Source of the DNA: Maylandia zebra
Lineage: Eukaryota; Chordata; Actinopteri; Cichliformes; Cichlidae
DNA length: 64,000 bases
NCBI RefSeq assembly: GCF_041146795.1
Contig: NC_135178.1
Location: 1 to 64,000, forward strand
Direction: 5' to 3'
In this document: one piece after another, positions 11,124 to 64,000 of the stretch
How positions within the stretch are numbered: the stretch's first letter is position 1
Layout of the letters: every line of letters starts with the position of its first letter
The notes under the pieces: model-generated
Databases searched by the model: none
Told to the model about the DNA's origin: nothing
Seen by the model: the letters and a program-made list of their open reading frames with translations, nothing else
Translations under genes and position numbers: made by a program

Positions 11124-11232
11124 GTGAGTTCTTATATTGCTTTATCTTAAACACGCTAACAGTTAGCGGTAGCGGCTTTAACGTCAACAAACATGCCACA
11201 TCCTTAGGACTTCGTTAGAGTGACAGTTTGTT

Positions 11233-19739: not shown

Positions 19740-21299
19740 ACTAGTAATGGCTTTAGACTTCCATGTGTGAAACTCTTACTAGTTTAGTCACACTGCTTGC
19801 GTAGAAACCTAGACTTGCAATGATTTGAAGTTGTGAAAGCTCAACTGGATTTATGACATGTTCATTTAGTTCTGCCATAGTGCCTTCTATATGGCATGAC
19901 ATCCTACTTTTGAAATAAATAGCATGCTACAAATTCTTCATAATCTGCAAATTTTCTTCTCATTTCTCAATTTACATGAAATTTTTATTTATTTATTTAT
20001 TTTTATTTTTTTTGGATGCACTCGGATGTGTGGATCCAACTTGATTTTTTCCAAAACACAAGGCCCTACTTTCATCGAGTTCATTCAGAGTTTAACTGAA
20101 ACATTTGGCACGGTGTTTTCGTCAGTCTGTTTGAGTTTCACATCACTTTTCCACAGAAATCACTGGTGATAATTTGAAATGGGGACACATACTGACAATA
20201 CAAAAGCAATTGCTCTGGGATGTAATCTATGTGAATGTAAAGTTGTGACTTAGCATTCTTGTAGTTTCCTAGCTAACTAGAGACTGTGTGGGTTTGTATA
20301 CAGTATACAAGTGGAAACATTATACAATATTTGAATGAATGAAGAAAAGTGCATATACTGTTAGCATGGAGTAATAAGTTGATTTTAACAAAATTAAAGA
20401 AACATTTTAACAGCTATTTAATACATTAAAATACCCTGTCCTTTAATGGTGGGCATTTATAAAACAATGTCTATTCTTGACTACCCACTATAAGTCATGA
20501 TTAGACTTTGTATGTCAGTTACACATGCTTTATGGAACATGCATGTTGTCCATCAGCAATTAAATGCACAGCTCATTTATACTCAAAGATTCTCTCTCTT
20601 AAAAACAATTGTCATTTCAGTTGCTCATAACTGGACTCATTTTAAAGGGCTTGCGGAAAGGGAGTCATGATTGTTCGGGTTTTCTCTGCTTTCTTTATTA
20701 TATTCTCATATTTATTATTATTTAATAATATCATTTATTATTGTATATACAATAATAAATTATATTATTGTGCTTTCTTTATAATAGAAAGCACCTTGAA
20801 TAATTTTGATTTGGTACTACTTAAATAAAATAAAATTGAATTGATCTGAGCTGTCCTACCACGATTACCTTCCTCACCCAATCACTAACTCAGTCAAACT
20901 ATATACTGTTACCATCCATCTGGCCTGTGTTGCTTGCAATCTGTTTGTAACCTTTTTAGTGTCTGCCTTCAGTCTTTTAAAATAACAATTGTATTAAAAA
21001 GTACAACATAAACACATACAATCATAAAACCTTTTCCCTTAACATTAAAGTTACCTAAGTGAGAAAGTCAGGGAGAGCTCAACAGGTTTGTGCAAGTTTA
21101 TGCTTGGAATCCCACCATGCACTTAGAAATGTGGAAAAGCCCTCTTTTGCTGTGTGCAAACAATTCAATTTTCAGTATAACAAGTTATAATTTATTTTCC
21201 TCATTGACCTCTGTTTGGACAATATCAGAAAGAACAGTGCCCTGAGGCACCTGTTGTTGTTTTCTTTTGTTGTTCCAAAGCTATGGGTGAAGTCTATGA
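19740..21299. other. unassigned upstream sequence of the first chemokine gene
   Basis: Mostly AT-rich with no exon recognised. A (TTTA)n stretch lies near 19985-20010. A self-complementary AT-rich block lies at about 20695-20770. A LINE-like tail ending AAATAAAATTGAATTG lies at about 20790-20845. Confidence 0.35.
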
Positions 21300-21371
21300 T
21301 TCTGGGAAATGGGCTTTGTAGAGGGGAAAAAGAAGAAGAAGAAGAAAGTGAAAGCATTCTGGAAAGTGAAA
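21300..21371 (+). promoter_or_regulatory. interferon-type promoter elements, TATA-less copy
   Basis: A GAS-like TTCTGGGAA (21300-21308) and two ISRE/IRF-like GAAAGTGAAA sites (21344-21353 and 21362-21371) precede the gene, at the same spacing as in the copies at 50.5 and 54.0 kb. The roughly 10-bp stretch that holds TATATAA in those copies is missing here: CAGGCAG runs straight into CGTGCTGCTTAC near 21419. Confidence 0.7.
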
Positions 21372-21499
21372 TTAATGTTGCAAAACACCTCTTGGGGGTG
21401 GGACCACTTGTGCAGGCAGCGTGCTGCTTACTTCACAGCATCAGGAGCCATACTCAAGACAGAAACGGTGAACAGCGGATCTGCCATACAGCCACAACT

Positions 21500-21963
21500 A
21501 TGAACTCAGTCACTGCCTTCATTGCCTGCCTGCTTATCCTAGGTGCACAAGGTACTGTGAAAAAAAAAAATTTTTTCCTTCTTTGTTTCTTTTTTTCCCC
21601 TTCATCCTGTTTATGGATATTTTGGCTGCTGATCAACAGGTAATGCTCTTGTCTTTTCCTACACAGGACAACCAGCCAGCAAATCTAATAAATGCAAGTG
21701 TTACAGTTACATTGGCAGGATCAGCCCAAAGCTCATCAAGGCTGAGCCAGTGATACACTACCCAAGTATCTTCTGTCCACATACAGAAATCATGTGAGTC
21801 CACAAGATCATCTGAGGCATGATTCTGCTGTGTTCTCCAGCTCCTTTCTAATACACCTCTTTTTAAAAAATCTTTCAGTGTTACCACAAAAGCAGATATG
21901 AAGAGGTGTGTGAGTCCAGAGTCCCCACTTGGACGACACATTCTAAAAAATCGTACTTACTAA
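21500..21963 (+). CDS. non-ELR CXC chemokine (CXCL9/10/11-like), diverged copy
   Basis: Exons 21500-21551, 21667-21793 and 21879-21963 encode 87 aa. Signal peptide residues 1-18 (MNSVTAFIACLLILGAQG). The mature part has the CXC motif C27-K-C29 preceded by SNK (no ELR), then C54 and C70, the four cysteines of the fold, with EIIVTTKADMKRCVSPES near the end. By family it is a secreted, receptor-binding leukocyte attractant, most like the CXCR3-ligand group. Compared with the two downstream copies, the exon 3 border is altered: a stop (TAA 21961-21963) precedes the donor, so the basic tail encoded by a preserved exon 4-like block at about 22077-22136 is lost. The promoter lacks the TATA box of its paralogues. 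The core fold is intact, so it may still work; expression is uncertain. Confidence 0.85.
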
Positions 21964-22319
21964 AACTTACTAAAAAAAGTAAGTCAGAATGACACGCACG
22001 CACAACTCTGTGTGAAGATGACAAACTAAAGGTCTGTGTTGCTTGTCACTGATAATCTCACTTGTTTCTTCAGGCAAGGGAGGAATGGAGCTGTAAAGAT
22101 CACGACTGCTGGTCAGAGTACTGCTGCGATTTAAACAATACACTGCACAACCTACAAGCTGCACTCGTGACACATGGTTGTTGAACTAGAAGAACTCACA
22201 GCAAATACAAGACAGCCAATATTCTTTTTGGTTACTTTGCCAGTTTTGTTCCCATGTGTGTGTATGTCTATATAGTCTGGACTTGAACTTTTTTTACATT
22301 TTTGTACATATGTTTTTTA

Positions 22320-22337
22320 AATAAATACCAAAATAAA
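22320..22337 (+). terminator. polyadenylation signals of the first chemokine gene
   Basis: Two AATAAA hexamers (22320-22325 and 22332-22337) occupy the same place as the signals downstream of the two other chemokine copies. Confidence 0.6.
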
Positions 22338-23118
22338 ACTCATGTGATGGGACTTTCTGTTCTTTGTGTCTTGCTTTGTTTCCAGTGTATCAACATAAGA
22401 CAAACTAAACTCTTACACATATATTATTTAGGATTTAAAAAGAGTTTTAAAGTTTTCTTTAATCTGGGAAAATACAAACTGAGTGATAATTCCACTTTGA
22501 AACAAATGAGCGTACTGTGTGTGCAACAGTAGTGCTGGTCATAGCTGTTAGCTAACTGGGTAAGGGTGTCATGAGTCTGTAGCTCAGTCCACCGGTTTAT
22601 TTAGTTTTAAAGTAAGTTACAGCCTGCCTTTTGGAGGGGTTATATTTCACTTAACACTATCTAATATGCATATCCACATAATTGTGGATTATTATAATCA
22701 TGATAGAAAAAAACGCATTGTGTTTTAAAGAAAATACATTAAGAAAAAGATTGTTAGATTTATATTTCAAATATAACAAAATGCTGATTTTACATCACCC
22801 AAATTATTGTATCTCTACAGTTTAAACATTTAATAAGATTTTGATGATTATTGATTGATTATGCCTTTAATTGTCACTTGCGGTGTTACACGTACATGTT
22901 ACCTGCAGTGAAATGGGACCCCTTCCCTGTTTGAAACAAACTGAATCATTATAAATAAATTATTTTATATTTATTACTTTAAAAAATCCTCAGTACTCAT
23001 ACTATATGACTAGGAATAAACAGTAAGGGAATGATTCTGGATCAGCACCATGATGAAAACCTGTTGCTATACAGTATTCTGAAAAAAGTTGTACAATGTC
23101 ACACTATGTGCATGTGCG
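22338..23118. other. unassigned sequence
   Basis: 3' flank of the chemokine gene followed by AT-rich DNA. A short repeat-like stretch (GATTATGCCTTTAATTGTCA, about 22858) was noticed but not classified. Confidence 0.3.
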
Positions 23119-33941: not shown

Positions 33942-34107
33942 TGTTGTGGTAAGGACTAATTCAATGGTTCATGCAGCACCCTCTGGTGGTGGTGCCGTGT
34001 GTATTTGTTGTTGCAGCTTGGCAATAAACGGAGTTGCTACGTTAAGACAGAGCTGTCCCAGTCTCGTTAATGGTGCTGCTATTATAAACCTGAGATCTAC
34101 CAAAACA
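33942..34107 (+). repeat. 5' LTR of the Gypsy element
   Basis: 166 bp, TGTTG...AACA, with an AATAAA signal inside (about 34022-34027, in GGCAATAAACGG). Confidence 0.9.
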
Positions 34108-34261
34108 TGGTGTCAGAAGTACTCTAGAGGGAAGAAGAACGTCACGAAAACGGAAGCTTTCTCACTGGAGAGAACTCGCCCTGCAAGTTTGCATTAACAG
34201 CCACAGTAGGAGCTAAGCTAACAAATTAGCAAACGCTAACTAGCATCTTGCGACTAGCAGC

Positions 34262-35420
34262 ATGACAGCCGAGCCAGCAGCCTTCCAAGTATCACCGCCG
34301 CCGAAATTTGACTTTTCAAAGCCAGAAGAGTGGCCGAAATGGATCCGACGCTTTGAGAGGTTCAGGATAGCATCCGGACTCGAGCTACAATCGGACGAAA
34401 ACCAGGTTAACACTCTGATATATACAATGGGCGATGAAGCTGAGGACGTGATCACTTCGTTGAACCTGACCGAAGAGGAGGCGAGTGAGTACCACACTCT
34501 CAAAGACAAACTCGAGGCACACTTTGTAGTCAGAAGAAATGTTATCTTTGAACGTGCAAAGTTCAACCAAAGGCAGCAAGAAGCAGGAGAGACTGCAGAC
34601 GGGTTTATTACATCCCTATATGCCTTGGCTGAGCATTGTGGCTACGGGGCGCTGCACAGTGAAATGATAAGAGACGTGGACTGTGCCACAAACCACAGAG
34701 AGCAACGTGAAAAGCCAATGCAACCGCTGTGGAAAGACACCCTTTCACAGCAAGAACCTGTGCCCAGCCAAAGAGGTACTCTGCAATCAGTGTAAAAAGA
34801 AAGGTCACTATGCAAGAGTGTGCAGGTCTGGGGCAGTGGGAGAAATACGTGCAGCAGGTGGTGACAGTGAAGAAAGGGAGGTAGCATTTTTGGGAACAGT
34901 AGCCTCAGAGAGAACTGAGGATGCGTGGTTGACTAAAATAAAAGTTAACAATGTAGACTGCTGGCTCAAAATTGACACAGGAGCGGACGTAACCGTATTT
35001 CCTGAAAAAGAGTACAATGCTCTAGCACAAAAACCACAGCTGCAACCCACAGATCTGAAACTGTATGGGGCGGAAATGTCTCCACTAGCCGTTAGAGGGA
35101 CATTTACTGCTAACCTGAGCACTCCGAGCAAAACTACAGTACAGCCTGTGTATGCAGTAGCAGACCTGACGCAAGGGTTACTTAGCCGCTTAGCAAGTGT
35201 AGCACTTGGATTAGTGGCCAGAGTAGAAGCAGTGTCACTCACTTCGGTAGAGGCAGTAAAGCAGCAGTTTCCAAAACTATTCAACGGGTTAGGCCGAATG
35301 GAGGGGGAATACAAAATTGAGCTTAAAGCAGACGCTAAACCATTTGCCCTGTCAACCCCAAGAAGGGTCCCGTTTCCCCTGTTGCCCAAAGTCAAAGGAG
35401 ACCTTGCTCGTATGAGTTAG
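34262..35420 (+). pseudogene. Gypsy gag, zinc-knuckle and protease region
   Basis: The 5' piece (34262-34795) is a Gag capsid-type sequence with PKFDFSKPEEWPKWIRRFER and FNQRQQEAGETADGFITSLY. An overlapping piece (34683-35420) has zinc knuckles CNRCGKTPFHSKNLC and CNQCKKKGHYARVC, then a retropepsin core WLKIDTGADVTVFP. Fossil region of an LTR element; broken relative to the family. Confidence 0.85.
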
Positions 35421-35464
35421 GTGTAATCTCCAGAGTAGAGCAGCCTACTGACTGGTGTGCAGGA

Positions 35465-37987: not shown

Positions 37988-38244
37988 CCAGCCCGGGGCA
38001 GAATAATCCCCTCACTCAGTTGAAGGACTGGGTTGTCTACCCCACCTTCATAGTTGAATAAGTTCACACAGTTAAATAAAATAATAGTTATAAATTAAGG
38101 CAATAAATGTTTGTTACAGATTTGAGTTAATGTAACAGCCTTGGAGTATCCAGCTACAAGTTAAGTTGCAGTGATTTCAGTATTGACATAAATGTGGATT
38201 AATACAGAAAACATTATAGTTTATAATGTACTCAGAAGGGGGGA

Positions 38245-38410
38245 TGTTATGGTAAGGACTAATTCAATGGTTCATGCAGCACCCTCTGGTGGTGGAGCCG
38301 TGTGTATTTGTTGTTGCAGCTTGGCAATAAACGGAGTCGCTACGTTAAGACAGAGCTGTCCCAGTCTCGTTAATGGTGCTGCTATTATAAACCTGAGATC
38401 TACCAAAACA
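38245..38410 (+). repeat. 3' LTR of the Gypsy element
   Basis: 166 bp, about 98% identical to the 5' LTR, preceded by a purine tract and followed by the GTTTT duplication. Confidence 0.9.
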
Positions 38411-47708: not shown

Positions 47709-48370
47709 CTGTCTAAATTCTTTCATTTTTAATAAAACGAACAGCATTGCTGCTTTACCAGGTGTAACAATTAAGTTTAACATCCAGGCATCCATGAAAA
47801 TTTATTACATTTAACAGAGTCAGAAGTTAGCATGATATAGCATGTTCTCACTGAAAGATTTCTGAAATTATTAAAACGTACAGCTCTGCTATAACTTCCA
47901 ACATAAATGAAGACAGAAAACTAAACAGCAGTGACATTTGTAGGGTTAATGAAGTTGGGCTAGCTGGTATATAATGCTGTGCTACATGATCGCTAGGGAC
48001 ACAGCTATGTTAGCATAACATAAACAGTGAAGCTGCAGGATGAATGCTAACATTTTTCCACTCGATAAAAGTTAACGTGAGGGTTCCTGATGGTTAGAGA
48101 CAAATGCAATCGCATGGCAAGATGCTTTAAACTAGTGATGTGTCGGTCGCAAACGAAACGGCTCTTAGAGCCGACTCTTTGAAGTGAGCAACGTAAGCCA
48201 TAAGGAGCCGTGTTTTTTTTTTTTTTTCTCTCTCTCACACTTTTCCCCCCACTTCACTCCGCACGCGAGCCCTGTGCTCTGCGCTGGGCAGAGTGGTATG
48301 GCGTTATTTTTGTGCCACTATTCTGAGCGCATGTAAAATAAATTGCAGCTGTAGGTGTTGCAATTGGCAA
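47709..48370. other. unassigned sequence with a hAT-like end
   Basis: TAGTGATGTGTCGGTCGC at 48133, followed by the palindromic CGGCTCTTAGAGCCG, resembles one end of a fish hAT family. No partner end was seen. No coding exon. Confidence 0.35.
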
Positions 48371-49026
48371 GGCAAACCTAGACTTCAGAAAAATAATTGA
48401 GGCAATTCATTTACATGGGATCAAAATGTGACTGAGACAGTGATGCAAAGAATGAAAAATATTACACCAGAATAATAACAAGATGCAGCACGATGGTTAG
48501 TACTGTTACCTCACAGCAACAGCAGTCCTTCTGTGAAAATCTAACCGGAAATCTTACTATTTTCTATTAGTCTTTTTGTTCACTTTTGACTAATTAGTGG
48601 TGTTATGAAGGGACACTGTATCAGCTGAGAACCATAGCTAAATTAAAGCTACTTGTATTGCTTATGAAGAGTGATCCATGCATATCAAATACTGGAGTAA
48701 TACAAGTCCTTGCACATAGAGCTGTCACATACCGTCAGGTGTTGCCTACAGTTGGTTCATATGCTGAACTTGTAAACAGAAAAAACTCAACAGTTGCACC
48801 TGATGAAATACATACATTTTTAGACAGTGAGATGACTTTCAATTTGAAGATGCAACTTCAACTATTTTGCTGGTAATAACTGAAATGAGCAAAGAAAACC
48901 AACAGCCTATTTATGCAAGATAATTCATAATTTTATTGAGGAGGGTTATATTGATTGGGTCTAATTACTGGGGTGGGTCATAACCCCCCTAAACCACCTT
49001 GGAAATTACGCCCCTATTCGTATTGC

Positions 49027-49061
49027 ATATATGTGTGTGTATATATATATACATATATATA

Positions 49062-49118
<57 letters not shown>
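49027..49118. repeat. (TA)n/(TG)n microsatellite in unit A
   Basis: Alternating TA with short TG runs. The orthologous tract in unit B (52535-52620) is shorter. In unit C the same tract received a Tc1 and a hAT. Confidence 0.95.
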
Positions 49119-49121
<3 letters not shown>

Positions 49122-50549
49122 GAGATAATGAAGAAATGGCTCACATACACAGCTTCTGAATTAACTTGATATTTCATTTCACAATATATAGGCTAAACTT
49201 TCTCAACAGCCCCCTTAAATGTAAGCTGAGAGTGTGCACAGTATAAATAGTTTTATTTCAAATCTATTTTGCTGACACACAGAGTCAACACTGAAAATTG
49301 TACAACATTAATGAATTACTATGTACTCGCTGTGTAGTTCAAAAGTACAATGTTTATTGTGACTTTAAATAAAGGTACCCTGACTTTAAAGCCTTCTGTT
49401 TCGTATGCTTGACATTTGTGGTATGTGATGAATTAGTAGTAGTAGCATGAAAGAGCATAGAAAAAAGTGTTTGTGTGAATGAGTGTTCAGATAGAGTAAA
49501 AAAATGCTATATAAGAACCAGTCCATTTACCATTTGGTAATCTCAGTCTGGTGAATACATTTTTGTAACTGGAGTGGCTTTCTGACATGAACTGCTGTGT
49601 TTTTATTGAGTTAGTTCGAAACTTTTACAATCTTGTTCATAGACACCACCACGTAAAATAAATTGCACATGTAAGTGTTGCAATTTGAGGAGAAATTTAT
49701 TTTAAGTGAAGAAAAGCTAAATTTGAGTGAACAAAATTCATTGCTGCGTGCAAAAAATGTATTTCTGTGTTTGCTATTATCCATACACACACAATAGCAG
49801 CCCCTGTCACTCAGTTTTTGCACTTGTGCTCTCAATATTTCTGCCTGTGCGCGCTCAACTCTTTCTGTACACCGTTATATTTGTGCCACAAAACCAGCCA
49901 ATCACAGACTTGGATGAAAAAAAATCTGATTGGCTGTTTTGGTCTCCAATCAGCTCGAAATGACAAAATGCAATATCCCAGAATCCATTTCGTCCAAAAC
50001 TCAAACGAGGCAGTGGCGGAGGAACACAGAGTGGCGGAGTTTGAAATATTACTCTTTCCGGGTCACAAAATAAACTTTTAAGATATTTTCATGCGAGAAT
50101 AGTGCTGTGTAAACTTCAAATATTTGCTTGATTTATCAAGACATCACATATTTGCATAAGTGCTCCCAAAAACAAAAACCAGGGGGGAAAGCCTTTCTGC
50201 AGGATATTTGTTTTCTTTAATCCTTAAGCCTAACAAGAACATTTGAGAAAAAAGAAAAAAGAAAAAACCTAAACAGACAAAGTGGAAGGCCACAGTCAGA
50301 GGTCAGCGTAATCACATAGATCTACATAGCTGAGAAAATCATTTTTGCTGTTTTTTTTTTATTTTTTAAATCAGATCTCACATTAAAAATGCAACTGGAA
50401 GCTTTATGGTGATAGCTAAAGTGTAAGGGATAGCAGTGTACAAAACAGTTTAAATTAATATATAGTTGCTTTTGTCATGAGCTGTCTTATTAATGTCATT
50501 TATATACCTAAAAGATTTCCCTCTGTAGGCATTTTTTCAATAGCTGCGA

Positions 50550-50674
50550 TTCTCGGAAACAGGCTTTGCAGAGGGGAAAAAGAAGAAGAAAGTGAAAGGC
50601 ATTCTGGAAAGTGAAATTAATGTTGCAAAACACCTCTTGGAGGTGGGGCCACTTTGTGCAGGCAGTGTATATAA
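50550..50674 (+). promoter_or_regulatory. GAS, two ISREs and TATA box of chemokine copy A
   Basis: GAS-like TTCTCGGAA 50550-50558; ISRE/IRF-like GAAAGTGAAA at 50588-50597 and 50607-50616; TATATAA at 50668-50674, about 84-90 bp before the start codon. The order and spacing are those of an interferon-gamma and IRF-responsive promoter. Activity is inferred. Confidence 0.75.
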
Positions 50675-50757
50675 GCGTGCTGCTTACTGCTTCACAGCAT
50701 CAGGAGCCATACTCAAGACAGAAACGGTGAACAGCGGATCTGCCTACAGCCACAACT

Positions 50758-51375
50758 ATGAACTCAGTCACTGCCTTCGTTGCCTGCCTGCTTATCCTAG
50801 GTGCACAAGGTACTGTGAAAATCGTATTTTTTTTCCTTCTTTGTTTCTTTTTTCTCCTTCATCCTGTTTATGGATATTTTGGCTGCTGATCAACAGGTAA
50901 TGCTCTTGTCTTTTCCTACACAGGACAACCAGCCAGCAAATCTAATAAATGCAAGTGTTACAGTTACATTGGCAGGATCAGCCCAAAGCTCATCAAGACT
51001 GAGCCAGTGATACACTACCCAAGTATCTTCTGTCCACATACAGAGATCATGTGAGTCCACAAGATGACCTGAGGTATGATTCTGCTGTGTTCTCCAGTTC
51101 CTTCCTAATACACCTCTTTTTAAAAATCTTTCAGTGTTACCACAAAAGCAGATATGAAGAAGTGTGTGAATCCAGAGTCCCCACTTGGACGACACATTCT
51201 AAAAAATCACAACAAGTAAGCCAAATTCAGAATGACACGCACGCACAACTCTGTGAAGATGACAAACTAAAGGTCTGTGTTGCTTGTCACTGATAATCTC
51301 ACTTGTTTCTTCAGGCAAGGGAAGAAAGGAGCTGTAAGCACCACGACTGCTGGTCAGAGTACTGCTGCAATCTAA
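50758..51375 (+). CDS. non-ELR CXC chemokine (CXCL9/10/11-like), copy A
   Basis: Four exons: 50758-50809, 50924-51050, 51135-51215 and 51315-51375, all GT/AG, total 321 nt, 106 aa. Signal peptide 1-18 (MNSVTAFVACLLILGAQG). Mature chain with C27-K-C29, C54 and C70, no ELR before the CXC motif. Exon 4 adds a tail starting QGKKGAVSTTTAG. If the third intron is retained, translation ends at once (AAG TAA, 51214-51219), giving an 87-aa form. By family, a secreted attractant for CXCR3-type receptors on leukocytes. The gene lies in a tandem unit with an identical-protein twin 3502 bp downstream. The exact orthology within teleost CXC names is not settled. Confidence 0.9.
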
Positions 51376-51630
51376 ATAAGACACTGCGTGACGAACACGC
51401 TGCACTCCTACTGCACAGCAGAAGTGACACCTGGTGTTGAACTAAAAGGACTCATTCAGTCTCACCGGAAATACAAGACAATCAATATTCTTTATGATTA
51501 CTCTGCAATTTTTGTTCCCCTTGCGTGTATATATATACACATTAATATATATTAATATATATATATAAACATATGTATAGTCTAGACTTGAACTTCTTAC
51601 ATTTTTGTACATATGCTTTTTAAATAATAA

Positions 51631-51636
51631 AATAAA
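51631..51636 (+). terminator. poly(A) signal of chemokine copy A
   Basis: AATAAA about 255 bp after the stop codon, preceded by TTTTTGTACATATGCTTTTT. Confidence 0.6.
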
Positions 51637-52534
51637 ACCTATATGACGGGACTTTCTGTTCTCCATGTTTTGCTTTGTTTCCTGTGTACCTGTGTACCAA
51701 CACAAGACAAACTAAACTCTTACACATGATGTTTTTTAATCTGGGAAAAATGCAGTGATCAATCCATATGACCTTTTTATGATGCAAGTGTAGCAGTTAT
51801 GGTTTTAAAATTTGAAATGTGAGCCACCAGATAAGGGATCTCTACTAAATCAGGGATAGCTGCATGAAAGAAATACAAGGCAAACCTAGACTTCAGAAAA
51901 ATAATTGAGGCAATTCATTTACATGGGATCAAAATGTGACTGAGACAGTGATGCAAAGAATGAAAAATATTACACCAGAATAATAACAAGATGCAGCACG
52001 ATGGTTAGTACTGTTACCTCACAGCAACAGCAGTCCTTCTGTGGAAATCTAACCGGAAATCTTACTATTTTCTATTAGTCTTTTTGTTCACTTTTGACTA
52101 ATTAGTGGTGTTATGAAGGGACACTGTATCAGCTGAGAACCATAGCTAAATTAAAGCTACTTGTATTGCTTATGAAGAGTGATCCATGCATATCAAATAC
52201 TGGAGTAATACAAGTCCTTGCACATAGACCTGTCACATACCTTCAGGTGTTGCCTACAGTTGGTTCATATGCTGAACTTGTAAACAGAAAAAACTCAACA
52301 GTTGCACCTGATGAAATACATACATTTTTAGACAGTGAGATGACTTTCAATTTGAAGATGCAACTTCAACTATTTTGCTGGTAATAACTAAAATGAGCAA
52401 AGAAAACCAACAGCCTATTTATGCAAGATAATTCATAATTTTATTGAGGAGGGTTATATTGATTGGGTCTAATTACTGGGGTGGGTCATAACCCCCCTAA
52501 ACCACCTTGGAAATTACGCCCCTATTCGTATTGC

Positions 52535-52581
52535 ATATATGTGTGTGTATATATATATACATATATATATGTGTGTGTGTA

Positions 52582-52620
<39 letters not shown>
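52535..52620. repeat. (TA)n/(TG)n microsatellite in unit B
   Basis: Counterpart of the tract at 49027-49118, shorter and with one more interruption. Confidence 0.95.
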
Positions 52621-54051
52621 GAAGAGATAATGAAGAAATGGCTCACATACACAGCTTCTGAATTAACTTGATATTTCATTTCACAATATATAGGCTAAAC
52701 TTTCTCAACAGCCCCCTTAAATGTAAGCTGAGAGTGTGCACAGTATAAATAGTTTTATTTCAAATCTATTTTGCTGACACACAGAGTCAACACTGAAAAT
52801 TGTACAACATTAATGAATTACTATGTACTCGCTGTGTAGTTCAAAAGTACAATGTTTATTGTGACTTTAAATAAAGGTACCCTGACTTTAAAGCCTTCTG
52901 TTTCGTATGCTTGACATTTGTGGTATGTGATGAATTAGTAGTAGTAGCATGAAAGAGCATAGAAAAAAGTGTTTGTGTGAATGAGTGTTCAGATAGAGTA
53001 AAAAAATGCTATATAAGAACCAGTCCATTTACCATTTGGTAATCTCAGTCTGGTGAATACATTTTTGTAACTGGAGTGGCTTTCTGACATGAACTGCTGT
53101 GTTTTTATTGAGTTAGTTCGAAACTTTTACAATCTTGTTCATAGACACCACCACGTAAAATAAATTGCACATGTAAGTGTTGCAATTTGAGGAGAAATTT
53201 ATTTTAAGTGAAGAAAAGCTAAATTTGAGTGAACAAAATTCATTGCTGCGTGCAAAAAATGTATTTCTGTGTTTGCTATTATCCATACACACACAATAGC
53301 AGCCCCTGTCACTCAGTTTTTGCACTTGTGCTCTCAATATTTCTGCCTGTGCGCGCTCAACTCTTTCTGTACACCGTTATATTTGTGCCACAAAACCAGC
53401 CAATCACAGACTTGGATGAAAAAAAATCTGATTGGCTGTTTTGGTCTCCAATCAGCTCGAAATGACAAAATGCAATATCCCAGAATCCATTTCGTCCAAA
53501 ACTCAAACGAGGCAGTGGCGGAGGAACACAGAGTGGCGGAGTTTGAAATATTACTCTTTCCGGGTCACAAAATAAACTTTTAAGATATTTTCATGCGAGA
53601 ATAGTGCTGTGTAAACTTCAAATATTTGCTTGATTTATCAAGACATCACATATTTGCATAAGTGCTCCCAAAAACAAAAACCAGGGGGGAAAGCCTTTCT
53701 GCAGGATATTTGTTTTCTTTAATCCTTAAGCCTAACAAGAACATTTGAGAAAAAAGAAAAAAGAAAAAACCTAAACAGACAAAGTGGAAGGCCACAGTCA
53801 GAGGTCAGCGTAATCACATAGATCTACATAGCTGAGAAAATCATTTTTGCTGTTTTTTTTTTATTTTTTAAATCAGATCTCACATTAAAAATGCAACTGG
53901 AAGCTTTATGGTGATAGCTAAAGTGTAAGGGATAGCAGTGTACAAAACAGTTTAAATTAATATATAGTTGCTTTTGTCATGAGCTGTCTTATTAATGTCA
54001 TTTATATACCTAAAAGATTTCCCTCTGTAGGCATTTTTTCAATAGCTGCGA

Positions 54052-54176
54052 TTCTCGGAAACAGGCTTTGCAGAGGGGAAAAAGAAGAAGAAAGTGAAAG
54101 GCATTCTGGAAAGTGAAATTAATGTTGCAAAACACCTCTTGGAGGTGGGGCCACTTTGTGCAGGCAGTGTATATAA
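54052..54176 (+). promoter_or_regulatory. GAS, two ISREs and TATA box of chemokine copy B
   Basis: TTCTCGGAA 54052-54060; GAAAGTGAAA 54090-54099 and 54109-54118; TATATAA 54170-54176. Identical to copy A in order and spacing. Confidence 0.75.
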
Positions 54177-54259
54177 GCGTGCTGCTTACTGCTTCACAGC
54201 ATCAGGAGCCATACTCAAGACAGAAACGGTGAACAGCGGATCTGCCTACAGCCACAACT

Positions 54260-54877
54260 ATGAACTCAGTCACTGCCTTCGTTGCCTGCCTGCTTATCCT
54301 AGGTGCACAAGGTACTGTGAAAATCGTATTTTTTTTCCTTCTTTGTTTCTTTTTTCCCCTTCATCCTGTTTATGGATATTTTGGCTGCTGATCAACAGGT
54401 AATGCTCTTGTCTTTTCCTACACAGGACAACCAGCCAGCAAATCTAATAAATGCAAGTGTTACAGTTACATTGGCAGGATCAGCCCAAAGCTCATCAAGA
54501 CTGAGCCAGTGATACACTACCCAAGTATCTTCTGTCCACATACAGAGATCATGTGAGTCCACAAGATGACCTGAGGTATGATTCTGCTGTGTTCTCCAGT
54601 TCCTTCCTAATACACCTCTTTTTAAAAATCTTTCAGTGTTACCACAAAAGCAGATATGAAGAAGTGTGTGAATCCAGAGTCCCCACTTGGACGACACATT
54701 CTAAAAAATCACAACAAGTAAGCCAAATTCAGAATGACACGCACGCACAACTCTGTGAAGATGACAAACTAAAGGTCTGTGTTGCTTGTCACTGATAATC
54801 TCACTTGTTTCTTCAGGCAAGGGAAGAAAGGAGCTGTAAGCACCACGACTGCTGGTCAGAGTACTGCTGCAATCTAA
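54260..54877 (+). CDS. non-ELR CXC chemokine (CXCL9/10/11-like), copy B
   Basis: Exons 54260-54311, 54426-54552, 54637-54717 and 54817-54877. The four exons are identical in sequence to those of copy A, so the 106-aa product is the same: signal peptide 1-18, CKC at 27-29, C54 and C70, and a tail from exon 4. Intron 1 differs in its pyrimidine run. A (TA)n tract in the 3' UTR (about 55029-55083) is longer than in copy A, so transcripts of the two copies would be distinguishable there. Same promoter elements as copy A. Confidence 0.9.
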
Positions 54878-55146
54878 ATAAGACACTGCGTGACGAACAC
54901 GCTGCACTCCTACTGCACAGCAGAAGTGACACCTGGTGTTGAACTAAAAGGACTCATTCAGTCTCACCGGAAATACAAGACAATCAATATTCTTTATGAT
55001 TACTCTGCAATTTTTGTTCCCCTCGCGTGTATATATATATATATATATATATACACATTAATATATATTAATATATATATATAAACATATGTATAGTCTA
55101 GACTTGAACTTCTTACATTTTTGTACATATGCTTTTTAAATAATAA

Positions 55147-55152
55147 AATAAA
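55147..55152 (+). terminator. poly(A) signal of chemokine copy B
   Basis: AATAAA at the position equivalent to 51631-51636. Confidence 0.6.
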
Positions 55153-55394
55153 ACCTATATGACGGGACTTTCTGTTCTCCATGTTTTGCTTTGTTTCCTG
55201 TGTACCTGTGTACCAACACAAGACAAACTAAACTCTTACACATGATGTTTTTTAATCTGGGAAAAATGCAGTGATCAATCCATATGACCTTTTTATGATG
55301 CAAGTGTAGCAGTTATGGTTTTAAAATTTGAAATGTGAGCCACCAGATAAGGGATCTCTACTAAATCAGGGATAGCTGCATGAAAGAAATACAA

Positions 55395-55848
55395 GGCAAA
55401 CCTAGACTTCAGAAAAATAATTGAGGCAATTCATTTACATGGGATCAAAATGTGACTGAGACAGTGATGCAAAGAATGAAAAATATTACACCAGAATAAT
55501 AACAAGATGCAGCACGATGGTTAGTACTGTTACCTCACAGCAACAGCAGTCCTTCTGTGGAAATCTAACCGGAAATCTTACTCTTTTCTATTAGTCTTTT
55601 TGTTCACTTTTGACTAATTAGTGGTGTTATGAAGGGACACTGTATCAGCTGAGAACCATAGCTAAATTAAAGCTACTTGTATTGCTTATGAAGAGTGATC
55701 CATGCATATCAAATACTGGAGTAATACAAGTCCTTGCACATAGACCTGTCACATACCTTCAGGTGTTGCCTACAGTTGGTTCATATGCTGAACTTGTAAA
55801 CAGAAAAAACTCAACAGTTGCACCTGATGAAATACATACATTTTTAGA
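55395..55848 (+). repeat. chemokine tandem unit C, left part
   Basis: Third copy of the unit start, matching 48371-48824 almost perfectly. It ends abruptly at ...TTTTTAGAC, where units A and B continue with AGTGAGATGAC. The rest of the unit appears to resume at the (TA)n tract at 59093, after about 3.2 kb of other DNA. Confidence 0.9.
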
Positions 55849-56513
55849 CTGCATGGTTTAATAAGGAGTGGGGAAAAAAAAAAAACTGTACCTTTTTTGT
55901 GTGTGTATTTTTTTTTTTTAAACTGGCTGTATCCCACTGCTGCCACCAATTGTCATGATCCAAGCAGCCAGGAACACACAGGCACAAATGTAATCTTCAA
56001 AAAATGGGTTTTATTATACCCCCAAAAAGGACAAGATGATTACAAAAATTCAAGATATCAAAAATAAAGTTTTTAAGAACCAAGTGGGCCCGTAAAAGAG
56101 GTTAACATAACATAACGCTACTCAAAAGTCACTTAACAAAAACATAACTCAACAAACTGACCTGCCCAAATGAGAAACAGCTCCAGTTATATAGCAAATG
56201 AATAAACCATTATATACACCAAAGGTGAAAACTAAAGAGATAACAGCCAACCATCATTCAAGAAGAACCCCATTCCCCCTGCATGATCACAATAGATGGT
56301 TCAGTCCACTTTATTGGCTTCTGCATTTAAACCAGCTCCACCCTCAGCCTCCTCTTTCAGCCAAACCAGGAAGGACTGGAGCGGAGGTCAGGTAACTCAG
56401 AAAGAGCAGAAATATAATCAATATAACATATACCTATATAAAATAACAAACAATGCAAAGCAAAGTCTATGCCACCATTTGGGCTATAGCTTAGTGCTGT
56501 CATGCATTACAGG
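55849..56513. other. unassigned insert sequence in unit C
   Basis: Poly(A)- and poly(T)-rich start, then sequence with TGTCATGATCCAAGCAGCC and GGGTTTTATTATACCCCC. It continues after the hAT at 57823-57923. No domain or terminal repeats were recognised; it may be a decayed retroelement. Confidence 0.3.
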
Positions 56514-57814
56514 TAGTGATGGGCAGATGAAGCCCCATGAAGCACTGAAGCTTTTCATCCAATTGGTTCACCCCAACGCGAAGCTTCATGAAGCTTCATT
56601 TGCTCTAGCAGGACACCTACTGGACGTAAAAATAATAGCTGGCATGAATTTGAAGAGTGTGGCATTTTGCACACAGCCTGTAAATGTCAACAACAAAAGG
56701 AGTGTGTAAAACATGTATATTGTAGTGATGGCAGTATACTGTGTATATTTATAGTGGCAGTATGGGAAATGATTATTTGGAAATGCTTGAAATGGAAATG
56801 ATCATTTACTGTGAGGTGAGGTGTGGTTGGGGTGTGGACAGTAGTTGTGCTTTTGTAACGTTGAGGTATGGACAGCTACACACTGAGGCTTTGAGCCTCA
56901 GTCCTGCCTGTTCACATTTTATTCTGTAAAAACTAAATTTTCACTGCTTTTACGACCTTTTTAGTGGGGAGAACATAGCTAGGATTTAATGATTTAACAA
57001 GTCTTTTGAATCCTTTGTCCTCCACAATGCTAAATGGCTGTGAGTCCTCAATCACCATGCTGACCAGGTCTTCATCTATTTGAGATTGTTCTCCTGAGGA
57101 AAGACAATAAAGACAAAGCACAAATATAAATATCACACACGTAACTTATAACAGTTGTATAATATTGTTATATCATTTAGTAACATTACTGCATCCTATA
57201 TTATCATGGCATTTGATGGCTCACCTGGTCTTGCTCCACAATCGGTGTTCCCCTTATTCTCATGCAAAGCTCTGTAGTGCCTAAGCATGGATGAGGTGTT
57301 GTTGTTATATCCCAGCTCCCTGGCACATAGCAAACACTTCACCTTGTACAAAAGTAAAGACAGCTTAACATAAATTGTATTGCACCATCAGTATCATGAA
57401 AATACATCTTCTGTAGAAATTTACATACCTTGTTGGGAGGAATAAGATCAAAATGTTCCCTCACAGGGGAGGACATCCTCCTCTTCTTAGCTGGCTCCAT
57501 TCTCTCCAGACTTTCTCTCCTCACTCTCATAAACCTCCAAACGGTCTCCAAACTCACACTAACCGCAACTCTCCATCAAACACCCACATTTTTGAATGAA
57601 GTCTGAGGGGTTTATATCGCTGTCATAGCTCGCGGCAAAGTTCGAACCACTTCATGAACCAGTCACGTGGTACAGCCGGGCAGCGAGGCTTCGGACGTCA
57701 TCATTTTCAGCTCCTCCCATAAATGAAGCAAGCCTCGATACGCGCTTCGCGGAAACGCCCCCTCCATTACTCGACACACGCTCCGAAGCCTCGATACAGA
57801 ACGTCCCATCACTA
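56514..57814 (-). mobile_element. hAT element encoding a BED-finger mini-protein, copy 2
   Basis: TIRs TAGTGATGGG and CCCATCACTA are flanked by the exact 8-bp duplication ATTACAGG (56506-56513 and 57815-57822). It is the inverted sister of 6259-7527, with the same internal gene. Confidence 0.92.
56933..57500 (-). CDS. BED zinc-finger mini-protein of a hAT derivative
   Basis: Three exons on the minus strand: 57500-57429, 57342-57225 and 57093-56933, with GTATGT, GTGAGC donors and AG acceptors; 351 nt, 116 aa, no internal stop. Exon 2 holds the BED finger: CLLCARELGYNNNTSS then MLRHYRALHENKG (C-x2-C and H-x4-H). Exon 3 holds a hAT N-terminal block, DSQPFSIVEDKGFKRLVKSL and NPSYVLPTKK, then ends in VVKAVKI. 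Full hAT transposases continue for several hundred residues with the RNase-H-like domain and dimer region; none follows here. The conserved aromatic of the BED start (W in copy 1, SPVWEHF) is R here. Likely role, if made: DNA binding without cleavage. Expression is unproven. Confidence 0.65.
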
Positions 57815-57923
57815 ATTACAGGTAACTCAAAATATCAAATTAGTTAACTTATGATCACAGAAGCTTTAGAGCATAACGTAAACATAAGACAAAAGACCAC
57901 ATGAATATTACCTAAGTATCTCA

Positions 57924-59092
57924 GTTGTGTGGTTGCATGCATCCATCACAGTGTGAAAAAATCAACTGTGGGAGCAATCATCAGAAAATGGAAGACATAC
58001 AAGACCACTGATAATCTCCCTCGATCTGGGGCTCCACGCAAGATCTCATCCCGTGGGGTCAAAATGATCATGAGAACGGTGAGCAAAGATCCCAGAACCA
58101 CACGGGGGGACCTGGTGAATGACCTGCAGAGAGCTGGGACCAAAGTAACAAAGGTCACCATCAGTAACACACTACAACGGCAGGGAATCAAATCCCGCAG
58201 TGCCAGACGTGTTCCGCTGCTGAAGCCAGTGCATGTCCAGGCCCGTCTGAAGTTTGCCAGAGAGCACATGGATGATACAGCAGAGGATTGGGAGAATGTC
58301 ATGTGGTCAGATGAAACCAAAGTAGAACTTTTTGGTATAAACTCAACTCGTCGTGTTTGGAGGAAGAAGAATACTGAGTTGCATCCCAAGAACACCATAC
58401 CTACTGTGAAGCATGGGGGTGGAAACATCATGCTATGGGGCTGTTTTTCTGCCAAGGGGACAGGACGACTGATCCGTGTTAAGGACAGAATGAATGGGGC
58501 CATGTATCGTGAGATTTTGAGCCAAAACCTCCTTCCATCAGTGAGAACTTTGAAGATGAAACGAGGCTGGGTCTTCCAACATCACAATGATCCAAAACAC
58601 ACCGCCCGGGCAACAAAGGAGTGGCTCCGTAAGAAGCATTTGAAAGTCCTGGAGTGGCCTAGCCAGTCTCCAGACCTCAACCCCATAGAAAATCTGTGGC
58701 GTGAGTTGAAAGTCCGTGTTGCTCGGCGACAGCCCCAAAGCATCACTGCTCTCGAGAAGATCTGCATGGAGGAATGGGCCAAAATACCAGCTACTGTGTG
58801 TGCAAACCTGGTAAAGACCTATAGTAAACGTTTGACCTCTGTTATTGCCAACAAAGGTTATGTTACAAAGTATTGAGTTGTATTTTTGTTATTGACCAAA
58901 TACTTATTTTCCACCCTGATTTACGAATAAATTCTTTACAAATCCTACCATGTGGATTCATGGATTTTTTTTTCACATTCTGTCTCTCACAGTTGAAGTG
59001 TACCTCTGGTGCAAATTACTGACCTCTCTCATCATTTTAGGTGGGGGGACTTGCACAATCGGTGGCTGACTAAATACTTTTTTGCCCCACTG
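57924..59092 (+). mobile_element. Tc1-like transposon, 5'-truncated
   Basis: The right TIR region reads TTGCACAATCGGTGGCTGAC and ends TTTTTTGCCCCACTG, followed by TA (59093-59094) at the start of a (TA)n tract. The left TIR and the first part of the gene are missing. The sequence matches Tc1 elements with CAGTGGGGCAAAAAAGTATT ends. Confidence 0.88.
57930..58876 (+). pseudogene. Tc1-like transposase, N-terminally truncated
   Basis: An open stretch of about 315 codons without an ATG at its start; the first 30-35 residues (first helix-turn-helix) are missing. The second DNA-binding part reads [20 protein letters not shown], with the GRPR-like [11 protein letters not shown]. Catalytic domain: first Asp in [13 protein letters not shown]; a glycine-rich [20 protein letters not shown]; the second Asp site reads [11 protein letters not shown], where active Tc1 enzymes have Asp two residues before the NDP-type Asp, so it is His here; Glu in [16 protein letters not shown] at the 34-residue spacing. 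With a missing N-terminus and a lost catalytic Asp it should be inactive. Confidence 0.88.
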
Positions 59093-59145
59093 TATGTATG
59101 TATATATATATATATATATGTATATATACGTATATATATGTATAT
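59093..59145. repeat. (TA)n tract of unit C, left part
   Basis: The tract is interrupted by the hAT at 59146-61113 and resumes as ATGTATATATACG at 61114. Confidence 0.85.
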
Positions 59146-61113
59146 TAGGGTTGCCAACCGTCCCTTAAAATACGGAATCGTCCCGTATTTAGAAACAAAA
59201 GCACACGTCCCGTATTGAGCTAATAAGGGACGCACTTTGTCCCGTAATACAGTGAGAATCAAAAGTAGTCTATAAATGTTAATGGAATTAACGCTTTGTT
59301 GGAAAGCATAATTCCCAGCCCCTCTCCTGCTTTGTGACCAATGAGCTGACAGCACACTTATGACAATTCGAGTATGACAATTCAGATTACCGCTCATCTC
59401 ATTGGTCGATGAAAGGTCGCTTACGGAGAAAATACCGGAAGACAACAGATGACCACAACAAGAAGCATGGCCAACAGGGAAACAAACGCCGACACTGCGG
59501 TGCAAGTCTCGGACGACAGTACACCTAAAGCTGGGCAGACACTGTGCAATTTTCAGTCACGTTATTCAGCTCCTGCTCAAACTGCACGATTGACTCGCAG
59601 GGGTTAGAAGTTGGTAGGTCACGATGCAGGGTCTCACACTATACGGCCCGATGCTCTGATGCGACCTGAGTGCTCACACTGTGCCTCCATAACATGAAGG
59701 TTATAACAGAAAATCTGTCGCTCTCTCTCTCTCTGTCTTTCACTCACACAGACACACCACCACCATCAACTTTGCTAAATTGCTAATGAAAAACATTATC
59801 AGGCAGCTGTGAATGAGCAGCAGTGTAGATCCAACTATTTTCACGGTTGTTGTGGTCGTGATAATTTTGTGATGCCACATCGAAAAGGCTCGGATGAGCT
59901 TTCCAAAGTTCTACAAGTTGTGCCTCTATCACTTGTGTCCAGATCACACGCTGCACTGCCGTGCTGCGCCGTCTTTTTCACCGACGTTTACGTGTTTGCG
60001 CGTGAGCAGTGTGAGCGGCTCACGAGCGATTGATGATCGGGAGCTGCTCGAGGTGTTAATCGCTTCTCGTTACCCCACGTATACTACACGATGCACGATG
60101 AAGGCCAAAATCGGGCCGATCACCAAATCGGTCGCACGACTCAAAAATCGGCTCAAAATGGGCCAAAAATCGCACAGTGTAAGCCCAGCATTAGAGCAGC
60201 AATGTTTGTTCGCTCAGAGAAAGAAAAATAGGCTGCAAAAGTACTGGGAGGAATGGGAAAAGGGAAACACCTGGCTGGGAAAATACACCATAACACCTTT
60301 AAAGCGCACTGCACTGTGTGCCGGCGCACTTTTTCCATAGGCATGCTTCTAGTGGTGGGCACATGAAGAACATGAGGGGCGTGAAAGCTCGGGGAACCCT
60401 TAACCAATTTCTTGTCCACCAGGCCACGGCAGAAGCAGATATGGTATGTAAACACTGGTTTGTTGTTTAAACCCTCTGGTTAAGGTTAATATGGGCATGT
60501 GCAGTGAATATCAGCGCTATGTGGCCAGAAGTGTGATAATATAACTTATTTTGTGTAATAAACAACTGCAAGGATAGATGATTACAACAAATAGATCACT
60601 AATACATAAAAGTAATACATAGATGAATAATGATGATGAGTTATGATGCGTAATCATGGGAACAAGTGGGTTTACAAACCTGATTAGCTTTAGAAAAGCT
60701 GAAATAATACCTCAACTGAAGCCAGTTGTACTAAATGCACTAAATGTGCACAGTTACAAGAATGATTTTGTTCTATTGTTTTCTATTAATTTATATAATT
60801 TTAAGTTAAGCAGGACAGAGTTCTTTTAAAGAAAGATTTACTTATATCCTCAAAAGCTAAGCATGACAGGCTTCTGTTTAAGAAAGAGACCTGTTTTACT
60901 GTGTTAATGTTGTCATTTTGAGCTAAAAATAAATGGCTAAATGATCATTTGTTTCCCATATGGTCATATCACAAAGAATATGCATCTGCTTAAATTAAAT
61001 TCAAGTCAAATGGTTAAAAAATAATTTCACACACAAAAAAAAGAGCTACCACACTGGGAAGGGTGAAGACACGAGGTGTCCCTTATTTATTTTTCAGGGA
61101 GTTGGCAACCCTA
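59146..61113 (+). mobile_element. hAT element (TAGGGTTGCCAAC), second copy
   Basis: TIRs TAGGGTTGCCAAC and GTTGGCAACCCTA are flanked by the exact 8-bp duplication ATGTATAT (59138-59145 and 61114-61121). It lacks the ISL2EU-like insert of its sister at 10520-13397 and preserves about 170 bp absent there, which include HCTVCRRTFSIG-like coding (about 60308-60345), a zinc-finger start typical of hAT transposases. No full transposase. Confidence 0.92.
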
Positions 61114-61862
61114 ATGTATATATACGTATATATACGTATATATACGTATATATATATGTATATATATATGTATATGTATGTATATGTGTATGTGTATATA
61201 TATATGTATATATATGTGTGTGTGTGTGAAGAGATAATGAAGAAATGGCTCACATACACAGCTTCTGAATTAAATTGGTATTTCATTTCACAATATATAG
61301 GCTAAACTTTCTCAACAGCCCCCTTAAATGTAAGCTGAGAGTGTGCACAGTATAAATAGTTTTATTTCAAATCTATTTTGCTGACACACAGAGTCAACAC
61401 TGAAAATTGTACAACATTAATGAATTACTATGTACTCGCTGTGTAGTTCAAAAGTACAATGTTTATTGTGACTTTAAATAAAGGTACCCTGACTTTAAAG
61501 CCTTCTGTTTCATATGCTTGACATTTGTGGTATGTGATGAATTAGTAGTAGTAGCATGAAAGAGCATAGAAAAAAGTGTTTGTGTGAATGAGTGTTCAGA
61601 TAGAGTAAAAAAAATGCTATATAAGAACCAGTCCATTTACCATTTGGTAATCTCAGTCTGGTGAATACATTTTTGTGACTGGAGTGGCTTTCTGACATGA
61701 ACTGCTGTGTTTGTATTGAGTTAGTTCGAAACTTTTACAATCTTGTTCATAACAGACACCACCCACATTAAAAATCTAGAAGTAATGTTGAAATGAAATG
61801 CGCAAACCCACTCTAAAAAATAATTATAATTAAAACAAAATTGCAAATGAAAAATAAAAAAA

Positions 61863-62055
61863 AATAGCTCAGTAGGTTGACCATTCGCCCCATGATCGGG
61901 GGTTCAAATCCACCAAATGGCTACCATGAGGTACCCTGAGCAAAGTACCATCCCTACGCAGTGCTCCCCGTGTGCTGGATTGGTGGCTGCCCACTGCTTC
62001 ACTGAGTGAATGGGTTAAATTCAGAGAGTAATTTCCCTACAGTGGATTAATAAAG
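61863..62055 (+). mobile_element. tRNA-derived SINE (second family), copy 2
   Basis: AATAGCTCAGTAGGTTGACC, GATCGGGGGTTCAAATCC, CAGTGCTCCCCGTGTGCTGG and GAGTGAATGGGTTAAATTCA match the SINE at 19492. The tail is GGATTAATAAAGTATACC. Confidence 0.75.
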
Positions 62056-62069
62056 TATACCAACCCATT

Positions 62070-62400
62070 GGCATTCTGGAAAGTGAAATTAATGTTGCAA
62101 AACACCTCTTGGGGGGTGGGGCCACTTGTGCAGGCAGTGTATATAAGCGTGATGCTTACTGCGTCAGATGATAAAACCCATGTGACGAGACTTTCCGTTT
62201 TCCGTGTTATGCTTCGTTTCCTGTGTACCTATGTAAGACACATTACATACACATGATGTTCTTTAATTTAGGGAAAGAATACAGTGATCAATCCATATGA
62301 CTTGTTTATGATGCAAATGAGCAGTTATTGTTTTATTATTTGAAATGGGATCTCTACCAATTTAGTGATAGCTGCATGAAAGAAATACAAGGCTTCTATA
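62070..62400 (+). pseudogene. chemokine ghost: promoter joined to 3' flank, exons deleted
   Basis: GCATTCTGGAAAGTGAAATT (ISRE-like site at 62079-62088), the TTGGGGGGTGGGGCCACTTG stretch and TATATAA (62140-62146) match the chemokine promoters up to GATGCTTACTGCGTCA. The next bases, GATGATAAAACCCATGTGAC, match the region at the poly(A) signal of the intact copies (AATAAAACCTATATGACGGG). All four exons and three introns are gone, removed by a deletion with its junction at about 62164-62172. Downstream similarity continues to the unit end. Confidence 0.8.
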
Positions 62401-62467
62401 CAAGGCCTAGACTTCAGAAGAATAACTGAGGCAATTCATTTACATGGGATCAAAATGTAACTGAGAG

Positions 62468-63824
62468 CAGTGGCGGTCCTAGCCTTTTTGGCGCCCTGGG
62501 CGAACACTCCCTCTGCCCCCCCCCCCCCCCCCCCACCACACACACACACACACACACAAAACATATTAAGGATTGTACATTAACAAAAAACTGTTGTACA
62601 CACACACACGTGAAGAGAGAGAGAGTATGCATAGTATACAAATGGACACCAAACAGCCATCGTAATTCGTCATACAATTAGAACAGGGCAAATCAACAAT
62701 TAACAATGACTAATTAATATTAAAATCTGTAATATAATGTATTGTTTGGAGTTTAGTCTGTTACTGTTGCTATTTTTACCTTTTCTTCTTGGAGCAACTG
62801 TAACCCACATAATTTCCTTAGGGATTAATAAAGTATTCTGATTCTGATTGTTTCAGGATGACCTGCCATTATCCAATGACACATCTGCTTACCTGTATCT
62901 TTTGCTCGTTTCTCCTCCTCTTCTTTTCTCTTTTTTCTAAACTGAGCATCTGATGGCTTTGAACTTTTCTTGTCCATCTTCCATTGGTTTTAATTTTGCA
63001 CTCCAGTATGAACACCCATCCCTCAACCCGAGGATCACCACAACATGACCTAATAGACCTACACCTTAGTTCACAGATTCACTTTGTCTAGGGTTTATTT
63101 CTGGGATTTCACACAACCCAAGGTTCAAATCATGAATACGTAATGGGCTTGGATTTACAACATTATAAATGAAATGTGCTCTATTTGGAAGCAGCAGGTC
63201 TCCCTCCCCTTTCGACAGGTTGTGTGTGAGACTTTAAATCAACAAACTGTAAATTTTAAATTGTTATTGATCCCTTTACCCCGAGTCATAAAGTGTATAT
63301 TTATTTTCTTACTCTTCTTATATATATATTATTTGTTTACTTGCACTGCTGTAACTGGAGCCTCGTCGTCTCGTCTCTCTATATACTGGACTGTATGTAG
63401 CGGAGATGACAATAAAGTTTACTTTGACTTCAGCAGCAAGCAGGCGCACCGAGGGTTTTCGCGCTCACTTTTTGTGTACAGAATTTCAAAAAAACATCGG
63501 TGCAAATTATAAGTCTGTATTATAATGTCTGGTGTTTTCGTGTTTGTTGGTTTGTTTTTATTTTGCGAATTGATTATTATTAGATGCTGCTCCAACCAGC
63601 CAGAGAATCCCCCGCCGCCCTGCCCTCTCCTCCCCGTGTCGGAAGCAGCAGGAGGGTGCCCTTACCCCCAGCAAATGGGCGATAGAAAACCGATCGGTGC
63701 CTGTGCCATTCCCTGGCTGACGTCGGGGCAGCATGAGTACGAGCATTTTTTTTTTTTTTTGCCGATGCCCGTGATGCCACCCCGGGCAAACCGCCTGTGT
63801 CGCCCGTATCTAAAACCGCTACTG
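62468..63824 (+). mobile_element. hAT (CAGTGGCGG family) inserted in unit D
   Basis: TIRs CAGTGGCGGTCCTAGCC and CTAAAACCGCTACTG, with duplication ACTGAGAG/ACTGAGAC (62460-62467 and 63825-63832). The unoccupied site is seen in units A, B and C (GTGACTGAGACAGTG). It contains poly(C) (62517-62534), (CA)n (62537-62559), LINE-type tails near 62800-62848 and 63340-63425, and one transposase exon. Confidence 0.85.
62893..62977 (-). pseudogene. hAT transposase first exon remnant
   Basis: The minus strand starts ATGGACAAGAAAAG and reads MDKKSSKPSDAQFRKKRKEE before a GTAAG donor (62892-62888). A short Lys/Glu-rich first exon of this kind begins TTF-type hAT transposases in fish. No downstream exon was recognised. 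Confidence 0.5.
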
Positions 63825-63874
63825 ACTGAGACAATGATGCACAGGATGAAAAATATTACACCAGAATAACAACA

Positions 63875-64000
63875 AGGTTCAACACGGTGGCTTGCCTCAC
63901 AGCAAGTAGGCTCAATTCCACCATCAGGCTGTGTGAAGTTCGCATGTTCTCCCTGAGAACCCGCACAAGCGTGCGGGTTCTCTCTGGGTACCCCGGCTTC
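63875..64000 (+). mobile_element. tRNA-derived SINE (HE1/DANA-like), cut by window end
   Basis: CAACACGGTGGCTTGCCTCA, a B-box-like GGCTCAATTCC, then GAAGTTCGCATGTTCTCCCT and GGGTACCCCGGCTTC follow the pattern of HE1-type fish SINEs. A shorter piece of it is in units A-C (about 48491-48530). Confidence 0.7.

Follow-up and report, generated by a model that had tools for sequence, protein, structure and literature searches.

Tandem units carrying a CXC chemokine gene and its promoter in Maylandia zebra: a probable product of unequal crossing-over

A CXCL9/10/11-type array comparable to the one reported here is the cxcl11 cluster on zebrafish chromosome 5, where lineage-specific duplication is described as having given seven tandem cxcl11-like genes (PMC4348563). 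Within that cluster the cDNAs of cxcl11af and cxcl11ag are reported to be only 2 bp apart, and interferon-gamma elements are described in the promoters (PMC4348563). Extensive intrachromosomal duplication of fish chemokines is also a theme of reviews (PMC4690017, PMC3568907). Recent tandem repeats of chemokine genes are found as well on zebrafish chromosome 25, differing from the present case in that they belong to the CC subfamily and hold several genes per unit. At human loci of the CCL3L1 type NAHR acts in segmental duplications, the units are much larger and population variation is known. On the cichlid gene described below we found nothing usable in open-licence PMC papers. The window analysed here, bases 1-64000 of a 40.27-Mb contig (assembly of 962 Mb in 63 contigs), holds two near-identical chemokine units, A and B, followed by the remains of two others, C and D, and preceded by an older damaged paralogue, gene 1.

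Two near-identical units and their chemokine genes

Units A and B lie head to tail (Table 1), and each of the first three units starts with a copy of a 458-bp block, R, the copies R1, R2 and R3 being 99% identical. The alignment of A with B runs over 3522 columns with 7 substitutions and 2 indels (3495/3502 ungapped positions identical), the indels measuring 6 and 14 bp and both falling within TA repeats. Given 99.8% identity over 3.5 kb, a match by chance is of no concern. An earlier note on this DNA had described head-to-tail repeats of about 3.51 kb that differ by scattered changes and microsatellite lengths, and this is borne out; only its exact borders were off, the true ones (48368, 51876 and 55392) lying 3 bp further left.

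Treating the whole unit as single-copy DNA had to be corrected: unit positions 1283-1798 are a dispersed repeat, and the matches listed for it in the assembly include several dozen at 83-92%, spread over many contigs (best 40 of 3750 candidates). Its copy in unit B lies at 53152-53667, and since A and B share it, it would have entered their ancestor before the duplication. Unit C has no match to it. An assembly search with the gene part (query 50166-51875) gave A, B, gene 1 and C, the last in two pieces; all other matches listed fell on the TA repeat of the query (best 40 of 112 candidates). To the right of the window, at 64-104 kb of the contig, hmmsearch found no chemokine exon (E up to 1) and there were no further units, the only likeness to the unit being four short matches of 61-120 unit bases each. 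A frame on the minus strand of that stretch (contig 70972-71361) looks by eye like the final part of a phosphatase of the PP2C/PPM1 type and may be a neighbour gene useful for synteny.

Table 1. Features of the chemokine array, in window positions.
Feature	Position	Strand	Size or unit positions	Remarks
Gene 1, older damaged paralogue	21298..22430	+		84% over 1222 columns
Unit A	48368..51875	+	3508 bp	R1, upstream region, dispersed repeat, promoter, chemokine gene A, 3' flank
R1	48368..48825	+	458 bp	before A; proposed crossover substrate
Dispersed repeat in unit A	49650..50165	+	unit 1283-1798	
Two ISRE-like GAAAGTGAAA sites, gene A	50588..50616 (starts 50588, 50607)	+		
TATA box TATATAAG, gene A	50668..50675	+		by eye
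Gene A coding exons	50758-50809, 50924-51050, 51135-51215, 51315-51375 (span 50758..51375)	+		106-aa CXC chemokine
Unit B	51876..55391	+	3516 bp	content as unit A, with gene B
R2	51876..52333	+		before B; middle copy
Two ISRE-like GAAAGTGAAA sites, gene B	starts 54090, 54109			
TATA box TATATAAG, gene B	54170-54177			by eye
Gene B coding exons	54260..54877 (= A + 3502)	+		coding sequence identical to gene A
R3	55392..55849	+		after B; start of broken unit C
Unit C remnant	61121..61794	+	unit 648-1317	
Unit C promoter relic	62070..62166	+	unit 2231-2327	one GAAAGTGAAA (62079), TATA box 62140-62147, no gene behind
Unit C remnant, 3' flank	62152..62387	+	unit 3246-3508	
Unit D stub, first part	62406..62472	+	unit 10-75	
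hAT-like insert in D	62468..63824	+	1357 bp	ends CAGTGGCGG / CAGTAGCGG; 8-bp flanks ACTGAGAG / ACTGAGAC
Unit D stub, second part	63823..63905	+	unit 62-152	63825 onward beyond insert

Both genes have four exons with consensus splice sites and a 321-nt coding sequence that translates to 106 aa; the exons had been called identical, and the coding sequences do agree at 321/321 nt. The protein matches Pfam IL8 (PF00048) at 34.9 bits (cut-off 21.3, E 1.8e-8), has its cysteines at C27-K-C29 (the C-X-C), C54 and C70, and begins with a hydrophobic stretch that looks by eye like a signal peptide. No ELR precedes the CXC, the protein reading SNKCKC at this point. It is 96% identical to Haplochromis burtoni 'CXCL10' and 95% identical (82% coverage) to an Oreochromis aureus protein, and its relatives carry names of the CXCL9-, 10- or 11-like kind. 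The best solved structure is CXCL10 (E 4.5e-11), with CXCL2/3 scoring near other CXCL10 entries, and in a protein tree A/B fall among the cichlid rows (98/96), but 7 of the 11 inner branches are open. From their sequence A and B encode ELR-negative CXC chemokines, putatively of the CXCL9/10/11 kind, whose members are interferon-induced CXCR3 ligands. A Pfam IL8 profile search of the assembly gave at least six matches and none at the A/B locus, where the exon-by-exon score falls below threshold, so that this count is a lower bound. Elsewhere on the contig a second CXC-like exon group lies at 35.37-35.39 Mb (within 35360001-35410000), and there 35379003-35381630 and 35387968-35390664 form a tandem pair that aligns at 92.5% over 2731 columns and whose exon-2 matches are identical.

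The promoter was copied together with the gene: two GAAAGTGAAA and a TATA box are present in each copy, in agreement with the proposal that the recent tandem duplication included the promoter. The window has 14 occurrences of the motif GAAANNGAAA, compared with 5.0 (sd 2.35) in shuffled sequence, and 0 of 100 shuffles reach 14. All seven GAAAGTGAAA of the window sit in promoters: gene 1, A and B have a pair each, and C has one. Because these promoters are copies of one another, the seven represent a kept motif and not independent hits. The putative label "interferon-type" rests on these promoter sites and on the names of the relatives. Rfam and tRNA scans gave no match.

Decayed relatives of the unit

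The third unit had been described as broken, and indeed C lacks the entire stretch in which the four exons lie. Behind R3 the unit is interrupted by about 5.3 kb of other DNA. Transposon copies are found there, among them a Tc1-type transposase frame and two elements whose inverted ends match, and unit sequence resumes at 61121. The match then ends at the dispersed repeat; further on, the exons are deleted between the promoter relic and the 3' flank, whose two matches overlap by about 15 bp. The fourth unit, correctly expected to begin before the window ends, is the stub D of about 150 bp. It is split by a 1357-bp insert, which we take to be hAT-like and whose 8-bp flanking repeats differ at one base. 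Position 62467, where the earlier note had let the array end, is the insertion point of this insert.

The Tc1-type frame inside C (window 57905-58876) is open over 323 codons and has a near copy on the minus strand at contig 76373-77230. An element of about 1.3 kb with ends TAGTGATGGG forms an inverted pair (6259-7527 and 56514-57814, 96% alike), one copy of which lies in C. A family having inverted ends TAGGGTTGCCAAC is represented by copies at 10520-13397 and 59146-61113, alike at 91-96% in two of three aligned pieces and at 88% in the third. At 33942-38410 the window further contains a retroelement whose direct end repeats, 166 bp long, are 98.2% alike, and its two long frames at 34671-35420 and 35339-37987 resemble by eye the gag/protease and pol of the Ty3 type.

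In gene 1, exon 3 is interrupted by an in-frame stop (about 21961-21963), and the gene has lost its TATA box to a small deletion, both ISRE-like sites being kept. It differs from A at 24/596 positions (4%) from the promoter to exon 3 and at 65/352 (18%) from exon 4 onward (p = 5e-13). In Astatotilapia calliptera a protein agrees with gene 1 in its exon-4 residues and is without the last part of exon 3, so that related damage may be shared by that species. Unit C is likewise uneven, differing from A at 12/537 positions upstream and at 40/233 at its 3' end.

The uneven divergence of C and gene 1 suggests an older exchange within the cluster. One might then ask if A and B are themselves an older tandem pair kept alike by whole-unit gene conversion. 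The patchy divergence of A from both C and gene 1 would speak for such a process, although the patchiness of gene 1 may partly reflect constraint on its coding part. The likeness of A and B spans the full unit up to both borders, dispersed repeat included, and a 3.5-kb tract that leaves no old divergence behind is harder to produce than a new duplication. We regard this explanation as highly improbable, and the conversion that had been offered for A and B is not needed for their likeness.

The repeat at the unit borders and a proposed crossover

Full-length R is present at this locus only. The assembly gave 10 matches, namely R1-R3, two in D and five of 35-48 bp, and no full-length copy was found elsewhere in the 962 Mb. 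We considered that R might be a dispersed transposon that seeded the event, and rejected this since only a piece of about 35-48 bp occurs elsewhere. A|B and B|C share one and the same border into R, which is diverged but recognisable at C|D and absent at P|R1, P being the DNA to the left. Its presence between C and D makes A|B an ordinary unit border, the end of the unit's remaining part (X) followed by R being the normal order of the array. The DNA just left of R1 (48330-48365) resembles the start of the dispersed repeat (89% over 36 bp), and the left border of the array may therefore be an insertion border.

The duplicated segment is flanked on both sides by these direct repeats, with its copies head to tail, and we infer that A and B are probably the product of a recent unequal crossover (NAHR) between direct R repeats. 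The starting locus would have been P - R1 - X(gene) - R3 - Q, an old array whose units each started with R and whose downstream members C and D had decayed by then. R1 of one chromatid would have paired with R3 of another, and the exchange would have given P - R1 - X - R2 - X - R3 - Q, with X doubled and no scar. R2 would then be a hybrid with its 5' part from R3 and its 3' part from R1, the exchange point falling within unit 368-458, the final ~90 bp of R. From both genes one would predict transcripts for secreted, interferon-responsive chemokines of the CXCL9/10/11 kind.

The substitutions within R bear on such a hybrid. There are three between R1 and R2, four between R1 and R3 and one between R2 and R3; R2 agrees with R3 and not with R1 at unit positions 169, 354 and 367, the pattern predicted for a hybrid if the exchange came late in R. 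At unit 192 R1 equals R2 and R3 differs, for which the crossover model needs one private change in R3. R1 and R2 differ more per site (3/458) than A and B elsewhere (3/2918; Fisher p = 0.036, from only 6 substitutions). Finally R3 differs from R1 by 0.9%, against 11-17% in other parts of C and D, so that one has to assume an earlier homogenisation both of R and of the block in C (12/537).

Whole-unit gene conversion, discussed above, could lead to the same arrangement, and so could an assembly loop. In the latter case the true haplotypes would read R1-X-R3 and the assembler would have looped round R, setting two X alleles in series. False allele duplications are reported as common, at 4-16% of three older assemblies, and two near-identical copies on one scaffold, as here, are described as the hallmark of these heterotype duplications (PMC9516828). 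The A-B divergence of 0.1-0.2% is as large as ordinary heterozygosity would be, two TA-repeat lengths are among the differences, and a repeat stands at every border. Gaps between copies are listed as a sign of false duplications (PMC9516828); A and B, unlike those, have no gap between them, and with no N in contig 1-104000 there is none in or beside the array. The assembly is moreover very contiguous, a 7-kb array should be short enough for long reads to cross, and the scored candidates (best 40 of 3750; best 40 of 112) gave no second location for the unit. We therefore think an artefact unlikely, and continue with the crossover as the preferred explanation.

Age, selection and comparison with known chemokine clusters

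With R and the TA arrays set aside, A differs from B at 3/2918 sites; between R2 and R3 the figure is 1/458. With a cichlid mutation rate of 3.5e-9 per site and generation the duplication would be roughly 150,000-310,000 generations old, thus of the order of 10^5. This divergence lies within the range of allelic differences, so that the copies are possibly young enough to segregate and may still do so.

At such an age identical exons are expected and are silent on selection: the probability that the 321-nt coding sequence stays unchanged is about 0.72 at the 3/2918 rate and about 0.53 at the overall A-B rate. The suggestion of the earlier note that the dose amplification might reflect recent selection is not supported, and we rejected the identical exons as an argument for it. 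What might still favour selection for more of an interferon-induced chemokine is that the copied segment is a whole transcription unit, each copy having all exons together with the TATA box and two ISRE-like sites. Between gene 1 and A the values of dN 0.021 and dS 0.018, obtained over 252 shared coding nt from five changes only, carry no informative signal, and the neighbouring copies gene 1, C and D have decayed as in plain birth and death. Nothing at the locus demonstrates that the doubling was favoured by selection, which appears quite improbable to us.

One could go further and imagine R as a standing recombination substrate through which the array repeatedly gains and loses units, with chemokine copy number young and perhaps segregating, and with the gene-less promoter of C still firing an interferon-dependent non-coding transcript. 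We put very little weight on this speculation. If the duplication is real and polymorphic it would offer a small, typable chemokine copy-number variant with a defined PCR breakpoint in a fast-radiating group of fish. Otherwise the locus is a textbook case of birth-and-death evolution among clustered chemokine genes, with two near-identical genes, a damaged paralogue, a promoter-only relic and a stub.

Mispairing at a repeat beside a gene is an ordinary route of immune-gene multiplication. In human CCL3L1-type loci chemokine copy number is described as altered by recombination between repeats (PMC4035060), as proposed here. The tandem growth of CXCL11-type genes is already known, and A/B is a further case of that kind. 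Compared with the zebrafish cxcl11 cluster it belongs to another lineage and consists of two units predicted to work, a promoter relic, a stub and a damaged paralogue, and here the probable exchange point is narrowed to a repeat.
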